DNA from: Streptomyces cellostaticus
Lineage (GTDB): Bacteria > Actinomycetota > Actinomycetes > Streptomycetales > Streptomycetaceae
NCBI RefSeq assembly: GCF_001513965.1
Contig: NZ_KQ948040.1
Coordinates: forward strand, 1 to 64,000
Direction of reading: 5' to 3'
Length of the DNA stretch: 64,000 nt
The position numbers and the translations under genes were made by a program. Below the pieces are notes generated by a model. That model was given only the letters and a program-made list of their open reading frames with translations, did not search any database and had not been told where the DNA came from. Positions within the stretch are counted from its first letter, which is position 1, and every line of letters starts with the position of its first letter. Shown here in pieces: positions 16,403 through 21,450 of the stretch.

Positions 16403-16641
16403 GACGACCATTCTCCCTGATCCACGAGACCGTGCCGTACCAGTGGGGCTCACCTGCTCACCCTGTGAGCTTCCGTTGGCCGCCCAGCACGTCGACACCG
16501 GCGACACAGCCTGACCGCTCGCCGCCACCGCCCTCGGCCTGCTGATGCCCCAGGCCCGGCGACGCGCTCTCGGGTCCCTCAGCGGCCTGGACCACGCCCG
16601 TACGAGCGGCCTCGGCCCGAACAGCGTGCAAGAAAGCGCAG

Positions 16642-17928
16642 GTCAAGACCCAGGCTTGACTTTCTCCCCCTACTGAAAGAGGGGGTTTCCACGGGTCGCC
16701 CCGTGGGTTTCCTGCTTCGTCGCCGGCTGCCCGCCCAGAGTACTCCGTTGAGGTCTTACACCGGCTCCACAGGCCGACACCGCCAGCCCGGCGGCCAAAA
16801 GGTTGCGTGCCGCGTTCACGTCCCGGTCGTGGGTCGTACCGCAGCGGTCGCACGTCCAGGTGCGGACGTTCAGCGGCATGCTCTCGGTGAGAGTGCCGCA
16901 GTGGGAACACAGCTTGGAGGAGGGGAACCAGCGGTCGACTGCGATCACCTCGCGGCCGTACCACTGGGCCTTGTACTCCAGCATGCTGCGGAACTCCGCC
17001 CACGCGGCATCGGAGATGGCGCGGGCCAGTCTGCCGTTCTTCAGCAGGTTCCGAACGGTCAGGTCCTCGATCACGATCGTTTGGTTCTCACGGACGAGTC
17101 GAGTGGTGATCTTGTGCAGGGCGTCTCGCCTGCGGTCGGCGATCCTGGCGTGGATACGGGCGACCTTGCGCCGGGCTCTGGCCCGGTTGGCTCCGTCGCC
17201 CTTGGCCTTGCGAGACAGCTCCCGCTGGGCGCGGGCCAGGCGGGCACGGTCTTTGCGTTCGTGCCTCGGGTTGGTGATCTTCTCCCCCGTGGACAGCGTC
17301 AGCAGGTGGTCGAGCCCGGCGTCCACGCCCACCGCGCGGCCGTTCGCAGAAAGGGGCTGGATGGACGGGTCCTCCACCAGCAGGGACACGAACCAGCGCC
17401 CCGCACCGTCCTGCGAGACGGTCGCTGTGGAGGGCTGTGCGCCCTCGGGGAGCGGGCGCGACCACACGATGTCCAGCGGCTGGTCCATCTTCGCCAGCGT
17501 CAGCTTCCCGTCGCGGAAGCGGAACGCACTGGTGGTGTACTCGGCGGACTTCCTCGACTTCTTCCGCGACTTGAAGCGCGGGTACTTCGCCCGCTTGGCG
17601 AAGAAGTGGGTGAACGCCGTCTGCAAGTGCCGCAGGGCCTGCTGCAGCGGGACCGAGGACACATCGTTGAGGAAGGCCAGCTCCTCGGTCTTCTTCCAGG
17701 CGGTCAGCATCGCCGACGTCGCGTTGTAGTTGACCCGTTCCTGACGCAGCGTCCATGCCTCGGTTCGGGCCGCAAGTGCCATGTTGTAGACCTTCCGCAC
17801 ACAGCCAAACGTGCGCGACAGCTCGGCTGCCTGCGCTTCGGTCGGATAGAAGCGGTACTTGAACGACCGCTTCATCTGGGCGGGCATGCTCACAAACTGC
17901 CATGCCGGCTTGTGACCACCCTCTCCCC
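16642..17928 (-). mobile_element. IS200/IS605-group element carrying tnpB only
   Basis: The element has no terminal inverted repeats but has subterminal hairpins at both ends, as in this group. One is GTCAAG-N7-CTTGAC at 16642-16660, just after tnpB. The other is TCACAA...TTGTGA at 17890-17915, just before it. A TTAC tetranucleotide (minus strand, 17929-17932) borders the left end and would suit the group's insertion rule. No tnpA is present, so it would depend on a helper. The exact ends are inferred. The 240 bp between it and era contains no gene I can support. Confidence 0.6.
16670..17887 (-). CDS. tnpB: TnpB RNA-guided nuclease / IS605 OrfB
   Basis: This is a 405-residue TnpB. The N-terminal basic segment starts MKRSFKYRFYPTEAQ. 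The split RuvC domain keeps its acidic triad: Asp189 in VGVDAGLDH, Glu274 in IVIEDLTVRN, and Asp356 in DRDVNAARNL. The zinc finger is C327-x2-C330 and C346-x2-C349. The protein is full length and undamaged. Family members are guided by an RNA made from the 3' end of the gene and the right end of the element. It diverges from glnB, 58 bp away. The start is ATG 17887 (MPAQMKRSF), with MKRSF an alternative. Confidence 0.95.
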   Translation of the reverse strand: MPAQMKRSFKYRFYPTEAQAAELSRTFGCVRKVYNMALAARTEAWTLRQERVNYNATSAMLTAWKKTEELAFLNDVSSVPLQQALRHLQTAFTHFFAKRAKYPRFKSRKKSRKSAEYTTSAFRFRDGKLTLAKMDQPLDIVWSRPLPEGAQPSTATVSQDGAGRWFVSLLVEDPSIQPLSANGRAVGVDAGLDHLLTLSTGEKITNPRHERKDRARLARAQRELSRKAKGDGANRARARRKVARIHARIADRRRDALHKITTRLVRENQTIVIEDLTVRNLLKNGRLARAISDAAWAEFRSMLEYKAQWYGREVIAVDRWFPSSKLCSHCGTLTESMPLNVRTWTCDRCGTTHDRDVNAARNLLAAGLAVSACGAGVRPQRSTLGGQPATKQETHGATRGNPLFQ

Positions 17929-17945
17929 GTAACGGAGGAAAAGAG

Positions 17946-18284
17946 ATGAAGCTCATCACCGCGATCGTCAAGCCGTACCGCCTCGACGCGGTCAAGACCG
18001 CCCTGCAGGAGCTGGGCGTGCACGGTCTGACCGTGACCGAGGCGAGCGGCTACGGCCGTCAGCGCGGCCACACCGAGGTGTACCGGGGGGCCGAGTACCG
18101 CGTCGACCTGGTGCCGAAGGTCCGCATCGAGGTCGTGGTCGAGGATGCGGTCGCCGAGGACGTGATCGACGCGATCGTCAAGGCCGCGCAGACGGGGAAG
18201 ATCGGGGACGGGAAGGTGTGGGCGCTGCCCGTGGAGACCGTCGTACGGGTGCGGACCGGCGAACGCGGCCCCGACGCGCTCTGA
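17946..18284 (+). CDS. glnB: PII nitrogen-signalling protein, orphan copy
   Basis: This is a 112-residue PII protein that senses 2-oxoglutarate and ATP/ADP. The T-loop keeps the modifiable Tyr51 ([15 protein letters not shown]). The C-terminal nucleotide-binding segment is [23 protein letters not shown]. It has a good ribosome binding site (GGAGG). In Streptomyces the PII gene normally lies in amtB-glnK-glnD; neither partner is next to this gene, and a tnpB element occupies the upstream position. Its last 107 bases are antisense to the end of the neighbouring DUF916-type gene. It appears intact. Confidence 0.95.
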
Positions 18285-19197
18285 CCAGCATCGCCCCGGT
18301 CACCACCCCGGCCACGAACACCAGCCCGGCGAGCAGCCAGGGCAGCGCGAAGAAGGAGGCGCTCGCCGACTGGCGGGTGTGCTGCGCGCTCGCGGTCAGC
18401 GTGATGTCGCCCCAGTCGAGCTGGGGTGCGCCGTGCCAGGCCTCGGTGAGCCGTACCCGCTGCCCCGGCAGCAGCTCGGAGGGGATCCGGGTCAGGTCGC
18501 GGTCGAGCAGCGTACGGCCGAACAGCCCCCGCGCCTTCAGCTCGACCTTCGGATCGAGGGTGACGTTCCCGGTGTTGCGCAGGGTGTAGGAGATGGTCGC
18601 CGTGCTGTCGCCGAGGCCCGGGACGAGTGGCTGGTGGTGGCTGATCTGCACGTGCTCGACGGACAGCGCGGGGAGCGTGGGCCCGCTGACCCGGAGGTAG
18701 ACGCGGGCGCCGACGGCCCGCTGCACGCCGAGCGCGAGCGTCCCGCTGCCAGGGTCGATCCGCTCGTCGAGCGCGACGATCGCGCCCGGATGGTCGCCCG
18801 GTTCGGCGCCCTCGGGCACCCGCAGGGTGAAGGGCACGGTGACGGTCCTGTGGCCGGGCACGGTGACCCGGGACCTGGCGGGCCGCGCCCACGCACCCAC
18901 GCCCCGCATCCGCTCCTTCAGGGTGCGCACCGCGAACCCGCCGTCGCGGGGGGTGTTGTAGGCGTCGGCCGCGTAGAGCCGGAAGGTGCGCGGCTTGCCG
19001 GTCTTGTTGGCGATGACGACCTTGTCGGTGAGGGTCTGGCCGGGGTCGGCGGAGAGGTAGAAGTACGGACGCGCGGCGATCTTCGAGGCGGCCGGGTAGA
19101 CGGACCAGCTGCCGTTGTCGGCGGCCTCGGCGGGTACGGCGGTGCTGCCGAGGAACAGGCCGATCAGGCTCAGGAGGAGGACGTAGGGCTTGCGCAT
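18178..19197 (-). CDS. DUF916-type membrane-anchored surface protein of the WxL system
   Basis: This is a 339-residue exported protein: signal peptide (about 1-27, [20 protein letters not shown]), a long extracellular region of beta-sandwich character, one transmembrane helix near residues 280-305 ([23 protein letters not shown]), and a basic tail. The extracellular blocks [20 protein letters not shown] and [19 protein letters not shown] match the DUF916/WxL-partner family, which binds peptidoglycan and WxL proteins in Firmicutes. It follows the WxL gene. The basic tail after the helix is read antisense through glnB, so the natural 3' end may have been altered by an insertion. Confidence 0.82.
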
Positions 19198-19294
19198 GGG
19201 TGCGGACCCCCCATGGGCTCGGTGTGGTGGCGGTCGGGCGGGTGCGGACCCTGTCCGTACGGCGGGGCGCCCGGCCACCGGTGCCGGAGTGCGG

Positions 19295-20711: not shown

Positions 20712-20753
20712 GATGCCGCAGAAATCTGACGGATCATCAGTTTCTGCGGCATC
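20712..20753 (-). promoter_or_regulatory. 13-bp perfect inverted repeat enclosing a CTGATGATCCGTCAG motif
   Basis: GATGCCGCAGAAA (20712-20724) and TTTCTGCGGCATC (20741-20753) form a perfect stem around TCTGACGGATCATCAG. It lies 37 bp after the small secreted gene and about 100 bp before the WxL gene. It can act as a terminator for the former and an operator or leader structure for the latter. A related core recurs at 21378. Confidence 0.6.
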
Positions 20754-20789
20754 CACGGAAGAACCGGAAAAGATCACTCAGTTCATGGC

Positions 20790-21266
20790 TCAGTCGAACA
20801 CGAACGGACCCGGCGACTGCTTGCCGGTCGCCGTACAGGTGACGTTGATCCCGAAGATCGTCATCTGCAACGAGCCGCCGTACGCCTCCAGGCTGTCACC
20901 GGAGGCCACGGTGCCGCTGAGCGGGCCGGCGCTGACCGGGTCGCCGGCGGCCATGGCCGGGTTCTTCGTCCCCGTGAAGACGGTGGTGCCGCCGCTCGCC
21001 TTGACCAGGGTGAGCTTGGAGGTGATGGAGTCCGCCGCCACCGCGACCGGCGCCTTGACCGCGCTGGAGGTGAGGGTGACGGTGGCCGAGGTGCCGCTCT
21101 GGGTGGCGGTGAGCGTGGCGGCGCCACCGCCGAAGATGCCGCAACTGGCGTTGATGGTCGCCGTCTGGGGGGTGACGGCGGCCGCGGTGGGCGCGAAGGC
21201 GAGCCCGGCGACCGCGAGGGCCCCGGCGGCCAGTGCCGCACCTGTTGCTGTTCGCTTGCCTGTCAT
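20790..21266 (-). CDS. Small secreted protein of the WxL cluster
   Basis: This is a 158-residue exported protein of unknown family. The signal peptide is about residues 1-30 (TGKRTATGAALAAGALAVAGLAFAPTAAA). The mature part is Thr/Ser/Ala-rich, predicted all-beta, and has two cysteines (ASCGIFGG and NVTCTATG) that could form one disulfide linking the ends. Its start is taken at MTGKRT. It is first of three same-strand genes encoding exported proteins. It may be a wall-associated subunit of the WxL/DUF916 complex, which is inferred from position only. Confidence 0.72.
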   Translation of the reverse strand: MTGKRTATGAALAAGALAVAGLAFAPTAAAVTPQTATINASCGIFGGGAATLTATQSGTSATVTLTSSAVKAPVAVAADSITSKLTLVKASGGTTVFTGTKNPAMAAGDPVSAGPLSGTVASGDSLEAYGGSLQMTIFGINVTCTATGKQSPGPFVFD

Positions 21267-21377
21267 GGGGATCCGCTTCCCTTCCCTGTGGGGATGCCAT
21301 GTGGGGATGGTCGGAAGGTGCGCCGACGAACGGCAGGCCTTGGCAGGTGGGTACGGCACGCTGCGGCGGCGGTGCGG

Positions 21378-21394
21378 ATCTGACGGATCGTCGG
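21378..21394 (-). promoter_or_regulatory. Motif ATCTGACGGATCGTCGG upstream of the small secreted gene
   Basis: This 17-mer differs at two positions from ATCTGACGGATCATCAG at 20724-20740, and lies about 112 bp upstream of its gene start, a near-identical spacing. It is a candidate site for a regulator common to both surface genes. Confidence 0.5.
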
Positions 21395-21450
21395 AACTTA
21401 CGGCTCCATTGATGCGCGAGAGGCAGGCGACGGCAAGGATGAAATCCGGA

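Follow-up and report, generated by a model that had tools for sequence, protein, structure and literature searches.

A TnpB element carrying a Shine-Dalgarno sequence abuts the start codon of a PII gene in Streptomyces cellostaticus, and its relatives recur at ATGA sites

The window analysed here, the first 64,000 nucleotides of contig NZ_KQ948040.1 of Streptomyces cellostaticus, holds five genes between era and a deaminase-like gene (interval 16403 to 21450), among them one for the RNA-guided nuclease TnpB and one for a PII (GlnK-like) paralogue, and raises the question of how such genes came to lie there together. The original prediction took them for an accessory island in which a mobile PII/TnpB segment was linked to a WxL/DUF916 cluster. 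Our analysis resolves the interval into a WxL/DUF916 block, an amtB-glnK pair without its amtB, and a TnpB element. The last of these is probably an IS200/IS605-type element with a TCAT target that abuts the start codon of the PII gene and whose left end replaces the Shine-Dalgarno (SD) sequence displaced by the insertion. The host genome measures 9.8 Mb, and its close relatives among named records are Streptomyces. All open reading frames (ORFs) that had been described between the deaminase-like gene and era were recovered at about the same coordinates, and Pfam matches (TnpB, P-II, PF06030) confirmed the nuclease gene, the second PII and the DUF916 protein.

The TnpB element occupies 16656 to 17945 on the minus strand (1290 bp, no target duplication seen). 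Its open tnpB gene (16670 to 17875, minus strand) encodes 401 residues that match three Pfam TnpB models with 109, 95 and 66 bits and NCBIfam NF040570 with 386 bits. The protein has D/E/D at positions aligned with the RuvC D/E/D of ISDra2 TnpB (8bf8), which we take to be the catalytic residues. The right end of the element was set by the divergence that follows a GTCAA/GCCAA tail in 30 aligned elements, the window's included, and the left end by the amtB/PII junction in relatives. In most relatives this junction reads CAGGC followed directly by ATGAAG, or similar; the window element lies exactly there, with its right end at 16656 directly after the amtB tail. Nothing of the kind separates amtB from the PII ATG in relatives that lack the insertion, and we therefore assign 16656 to 17945 to the element. 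At its right end a hairpin followed by GTCAA (16656 to 16700, minus strand), conserved across elements, is presumably the 3' portion of the guide RNA (omega RNA) used by TnpB; no Rfam family reached the gathering threshold in 15400 to 22000, a range that includes this right end. A DNA search revealed no second copy in the same genome, and no tnpA lies in the element. Two Y1 transposase genes occur elsewhere in the genome, with no link to the TnpB element ends established.

The left end, reading outward on the plus strand (17876 to 17945), is followed by ATGA (17946 to 17949), which is the antisense of the TCAT target and forms the first bases of the PII gene. An element-borne SD core, GGAGG, stands at 17934 to 17938 (plus strand), 7 nt before the PII ATG. 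With 70 nt versus a median of about 168 nt at the 76 unique sites described below, the window's left end has largely lost its terminal hairpin and has kept the SD core, as would be expected if this copy were immobile and the SD were retained for PII. The RNA fold of this end was uninformative (z −0.85). A native amtB-PII spacer with a TTAC target was considered as the source of the SD and rejected: relatives without the element lack the SD, and other elements carry it.

The same arrangement proved to be a family trait. Of 392 Streptomyces genomes, 150 gave nucleotide matches to the TnpB region at E <=1e-20. We assembled 93 elements, namely 29 loci (L232-L260), 60 further ones from the similarity list, the window and three loci found through their PII gene; four with an unrecognisable left end (L249, L257, L304, L319) were set aside. 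Among the first 32 left ends, 28 stop at ATG, one stops at GTG (L258) and three do neither (L235, L249, L257). A script found ATGA or GTGA 2-16 nt past the ATG-free left-end consensus in 83 of 89 elements, and in 79 of the 85 chosen by similarity alone. In 14-nt windows of neighbouring DNA the chance is 6.0% for ATGA/GTGA and 1.8% for ATGA alone. Two of the six script failures had been mis-anchored and do abut ATGA/GTGA by eye (L287, L300); the other four do not (L235, L265, L283, L318). Merging seven duplicates gave 76 unique sites, with ATG at 75 and GTG at one, and with the TCAT target at 75. The base after ATGA is A in 37/75 and C in 27/75 (14% and 39% in control DNA), so that the target motif may be longer than TCAT. 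The last base of the element is G in 73 of the 76, and the right-end tail is GTCAA in 65, GCCAA in 10 and GTCAC in one, with the flanks diverging after it. Near both ends imperfect hairpins are present, judged by eye from complementary arms in the aligned ends. The rfbB start, which four TnpB elements of only 72-79% identity abut in different strains (L269, L294/L407, L410, L412), may be a second hot spot.

An SD core lies 5-9 nt from the start at 74 of the 76 unique sites, the exceptions being L238 and L289. The mean duplex energy with the anti-SD was −8.8 kcal/mol for left ends, −6.9 for displaced host flanks and −4.3 for shuffled ends. With random coding DNA only the median is usable, and it was −4.3 kcal/mol. 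The host 5' flank is displaced behind the right end, where a host SD is found at 38 of 76 sites, compared with 12.2%. A simple scan detected no outward promoter in any of the 76 left ends; it is insensitive, as it found only 3/76 on the tnpB strand, and transcription presumably reads through the element. Such an SD-bearing end may also be present in an autonomous relative, since the genome's own tnpA-tnpB element (L351, 1300-1480) ends in a hairpin with AAGGAG directly before an ATG (ATGGAC). We read the gene that begins there as one for a trehalose-phosphatase.

Are these ATGA sites real start codons? An ORF of at least 80 codons lies downstream at 63 of the 76 sites. In a lenient test (ORF >=80 codons, GC content at third codon positions >=0.8) 59 of 76 passed, compared with 42.6% of 6576 control ATGA sites. 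A strict codon-model test was passed by 42 of 76 sites; among 6908 control ATGA sites from Streptomyces, 658 passed (odds ratio 11.7, p 6e-23). As a positive control 255 of 276 known starts passed, and true starts such as that of the window PII are missed by it. Annotation gives the same picture on Streptomyces plasmids, where the junction is the annotated gene start in six of eight elements (L406, L407, L409, L410, L411, L412). The start of L410 is TTG, L406 and L411 represent one site, and L407 is the same insertion as L294. Of the remaining two, L408 has an SD and ATGACC but lacks an annotated gene, and L417 belongs to a different type.

Several observations weigh against a preference for start codons. 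The sampled elements are relatives with 76-84% DNA identity to the window's and not independent draws. At 34 of the 76 sites the strict start test fails and at 13 the downstream ORF is shorter than 80 codons, so not every ATGA insertion marks a gene start. Moreover, only 1555 of the 6908 control ATGA sites lie outside coding frames, and if every start-like control were one of these, 42% of them (658/1555) would be start-like versus 55% for the elements, a modest excess. Purifying selection alone could therefore yield much of the bias: the transposase would need just TCAT, insertions inside genes would be lost, the survivors would be found at start codons and at intergenic ATGA, and the SD-like sequence would be no more than a portion of the left end that transposition needs. 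Indeed, the SD could be part of the transposase recognition sequence. Some related elements (L328, L330, L338, L422) stand at ATGA starts and have no classical SD, which is in line with this selection-only account and shows that the SD is not required for landing at ATGA. However, the SD core varies between GGAGG, AGGAG and AAGGA yet stays 5-9 nt from the ATG, the left-end SD pairs better than shuffles do, and the SD survives in the window element although most of the left end is gone. We consider selection alone rather unlikely to be the whole explanation, and an element that abuts start codons and brings its own SD to be the probable one.

Empty sites and recent jumps bear on how the elements insert. 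Empty sites without target duplication exist at the amtB/PII junction and at two other targets. When the flanks of these two other insertions were joined, they matched across the junction in the best 20 genomes of each search, with best identities of 94% and 93%; an element-bearing genome (G049) matches the joined flanks in two pieces, and further down each list there are genomes with a match to one flank alone. The viral contigs L393 and L394, with a common source number in their names, hold copies that do not differ over 1392 bp but lie in different flanks. Both copies abut ATGACC with GGAGG upstream; in one the ATG starts a 111-residue ORF and in the other a 45-codon ORF.

These data fit the following route. 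A Y1 single-strand transposase acting in trans would insert the TnpB-only element 3' of TCAT. As TCAT is the antisense of ATGA, the left end then comes to abut ATGA, often as a start codon. The outward strand of the left end carries an SD 5-9 nt from the ATG, and translation could begin from it when a gene is parted from its own SD. The host 5' flank, with the host SD at half of the sites, is pushed behind the right end and would become the source of the TnpB guide, and by analogy with ISDra2, TnpB would cut the empty site and so restore the element. For the window this predicts a guide from the first ~16 nt of host flank at the right end (16640 to 16655, minus strand), antisense to the amtB tail; by eye it shows little match to the canonical amtB-glnK junction. 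The element would have inserted at the amtB-glnK junction, leaving PII intact behind the element SD, while amtB decayed and the left end shrank to 70 nt.

A broader interpretation is that a widespread TnpB lineage has specialised in translation start sites, with a built-in ribosome-binding site, on which translation of the interrupted gene would come to depend, and a guide, drawn from the displaced leader, that guards the gene start. We lean slightly towards it. Judged from the flanks, such a guide may hold an anti-SD in half of the cases. The window TnpB might instead have been exapted to regulate the adjacent PII gene by RNA guidance, similar to TldR. In favour of this are an ORF that is intact in an element with a much shortened left end and a predicted guide that corresponds to the 5' flank of PII. 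On the other hand, D/E/D is present at the catalytic positions and such a guide follows from any insertion, which makes exaptation improbable.

The PII start has probably been hit more than once. Among 117 PII-bearing loci (107 distinct) from 199 fetched Streptomyces loci, three carry the element at the same PII ATG (L176, L197, L217); an intact amtB is present in the first two, and none was found in L217. In a tree of 91 tnpB sequences the window copy and L176 fall into one group (support 0.999), and the nearest relatives of L217 (L296, L275) and of L197 (L249, left end unrecognisable) do not lie beside PII. Thus at least three tnpB lineages abut the same PII ATG, which from the tree topology is most simply explained by three insertions. 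The close relative L032, with a synonymous divergence (dS) of 0.09 in PII, has no element at the PII ATG, so that the window insertion would be a separate event unless the element was cleanly excised in L032.

What was the PII gene before the insertion? The gene (17946 to 18284, plus strand) encodes 112 residues, of which 1-106 match the P-II domain (PF00543) with 111.6 bits, and the protein is 82% identical to the genome's other PII. A second PII is widespread: in 44 of 120 other genomes a copy with 84-97% identity occurs beside at least one more PII match, counted by eye. The possibility that PII is a foreign gene was rejected because it is 82-97% identical to copies at the same site in 40 loci. 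In 30 of the 40 loci having both genes era and PII are 1.4-1.65 kb apart. In L032/L152 (S. diastatochromogenes, the closest relative by DUF916 identity) this space holds a protein of 440 residues (4821-6143 in L032) that we read from its sequence as the ammonium transporter AmtB, and its stop codon overlaps the PII start as ATGA. The amtB-glnK operons of actinomycetes are matched in the relatives by a PII paralogue that follows amtB with an ATGA overlap, whereas in the window amtB is only a remnant.

The remnant lies at 16476 to 16655 on the plus strand (tblastn E 3e-7 versus the L032 amtB). It comprises about residues 7-100 of the N-terminal part, an internal deletion, an in-frame stop and then the tail, which is the amtB end that directly precedes the PII ATG in relatives and which here adjoins the right end of the element. 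No full amtB partner was found beside the window PII by tblastn. PII, labelled an orphan in the original prediction, is no foreign orphan, since it follows amtB in relatives. Loss of amtB also occurs without an element, because seven of the 40 loci have an era-PII gap of less than 450 bp and no TnpB hit (L036, L050, L053, L059, L075, L092, L106). The PII gene is under purifying selection: the ratio of nonsynonymous to synonymous divergence (dN/dS) is 0.03-0.12 in six of seven comparisons, and 0.30 versus the close relative L032.

The interval as a whole was compared in 119 deaminase-centred loci from 119 Streptomyces genomes of 121 searched (G073 gave no match and G000 is the window), with genes mapped by tblastn. 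The borders in the window are era (15449 to 16402, minus strand, ATG at 16400-16402), a GTPase with a KH domain (Pfam MMR_HSR1, KH_2), and the deaminase-like gene (21451 to 21987, minus strand), which has a weak cytidine deaminase match (E 5.6e-5) far below the cut-off. Downstream of the deaminase-like gene era lies on the same strand in 98 of the 119 loci, elsewhere in the locus in 11 and outside it in 10. In 43 of the 98 collinear intervals none of the five accessory genes was present, and 35 of these have a gap below 450 bp between tblastn hits, which provides the empty site proposed for comparison. One or more of the five occur in 55 of the 98, PII in 30, a DUF916 and/or WxL-like gene in 39 and TnpB, in diverged form, in a single one (L039). 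All five together were found in none of the 98, so this is not a gene set common to most Streptomyces. In L042, L049 and L057 the era-PII(-WxL) block has the opposite orientation with respect to the deaminase gene; era and PII lie beyond phoH and not next to the deaminase gene in L041, L043, L055, L062, L064 and L092, and between the deaminase gene and an inverted phoH in L040.

The deaminase-era interval is therefore a variable site with several separable modules, for the most part of a kind that is ordinary in Streptomyces chromosomes. The description of an accessory region stands, and that of an island that splits a compact series applies only in part, as 55 of the 98 collinear intervals hold at least one of the five genes. 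If TnpB, PII and the WxL/DUF916 genes had arrived as one unit, their adjacency in the window and the absence of the region from the 35 tight intervals would follow. Against such a composite island, PII and WxL genes occur at the site, jointly or singly, without TnpB in many Streptomyces, each also without the other. Nor is there a joint PII/TnpB segment: PII belongs with the neighbouring amtB, and TnpB sits in a distinct 1.3-kb element bounded by ends of its own. We rejected the composite island, to which we give hardly any credence, since separable occurrence and the element ends already contradict it.

The WxL/DUF916 genes form a block separate from the TnpB element. The exported protein of 366 residues (18178 to 19278, minus strand) matches DUF916/WxLIP (PF06030) with 30.8 bits, above the cut-off of 27.3. 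The exported proteins of 485 residues (19295 to 20752, minus strand) and 189 residues (20790 to 21359, minus strand) had no Pfam match at E 0.001; at relaxed E the C-terminus of the former is WxL-like and reaches 15.9 bits with PF13731 (E 0.013), below the cut-off of 25, and the latter has no family match. Of the two proteins attributed earlier to a WxL/DUF916 system, the DUF916 member is thus supported by its profile and the WxL member is a candidate. The block resembles the wall-binding system of Firmicutes in that a DUF916/WxLIP domain adjoins a WxL-like protein, and differs from it in the sub-threshold WxL match and the unmatched third protein. PII and the DUF916 gene are convergent and overlap at their 3' ends by 107 bp; an overlap of about 100 bp also occurs in L036 and L084.

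How far does the arrangement extend beyond Streptomyces? A search of 296 genomes of the class gave 22 loci outside the genus, which were cut out and judged by eye. Fourteen end before ATGA (L322, L328-L331, L333-L341) and eight do not (L342-L349). L329 and L334 open only short ORFs, and L328, L330 and L338 have no SD yet abut plausible starts. An Embleya element (L426) ends before ATGAAG in a record that is unannotated there. Among plasmid records, the cyanobacterial L418, L420 and L423 and the Azotobacter L422 abut annotated ATGA starts. These TnpB elements, one of them annotated IS891/IS1136/IS1341, share this position with the Streptomyces elements and differ in that the left end has no classical SD, with GGGGGTGYTAG or GTGCAAAATCAG instead. 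The existence of cyanobacterial and proteobacterial forms without a classical SD suggests that residence at start sites is the older trait and that actinobacteria gained the SD later. Further cyanobacterial copies (L414, L419, L421, L424) are not adjacent to any annotated ATGA start. L414, L415, L416, L421 and L424 have ATGA at the likely end and no annotated start on that ATGA, the annotated start of L421 being a GTG 7 nt earlier; L413, L419 and L425 have no such ATGA at the likely end.

IStrons are IS605-like elements with a group I intron, whose RNA splicing lessens the cost of sitting in a gene. The Streptomyces elements would also lessen this cost, by a putative SD supply where IStrons use splicing. 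The window element does not qualify as an IStron, as neither a group I intron nor any other Rfam family was matched in 15400 to 22000. TldR proteins are nuclease-dead TnpB regulators, a type rejected for the window TnpB on account of its D/E/D. With the IS200/IS605 family, and ISDra2 in particular (TnpB 8bf8/8h1j), the window element shares the aligned D/E/D, terminal hairpins and insertion 3' of a short target without duplication. It differs from ISDra2 and IS608 in its target (TCAT versus TTGAT in ISDra2 and TTAC in IS608), in the lack of tnpA and in a left end that carries an outward SD and abuts start codons. In ISDra2 the right-end flank serves as guide, according to PMC8612924, and TldR proteins are named in the abstract of PMC13418256.

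The element type is known, and the combination of a start-codon target with a built-in SD appears to be new. The literature matches listed, a scope with subscription papers and most preprints outside it, included no description of start-codon targeting or of an SD in an IS200/IS605 end, and neither feature is described in the available parts of PMC8612924, PMC2775950, PMC6006769 and PMC7290912. For S. cellostaticus the findings suggest that insertion of the element may explain the orphan PII, which was uncoupled from amtB. If the SD works, the elements would be a clear case of a transposon sparing the gene it sits beside at the step of translation initiation, and many Streptomyces genes beside tnpB would be read from a transposon ribosome-binding site. 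Such TnpB insertions would be easy to recognise and would define a TnpB lineage with a predicted TCAT motif. A direct test would then be possible of whether targeting or selection is the origin of start-codon residence.

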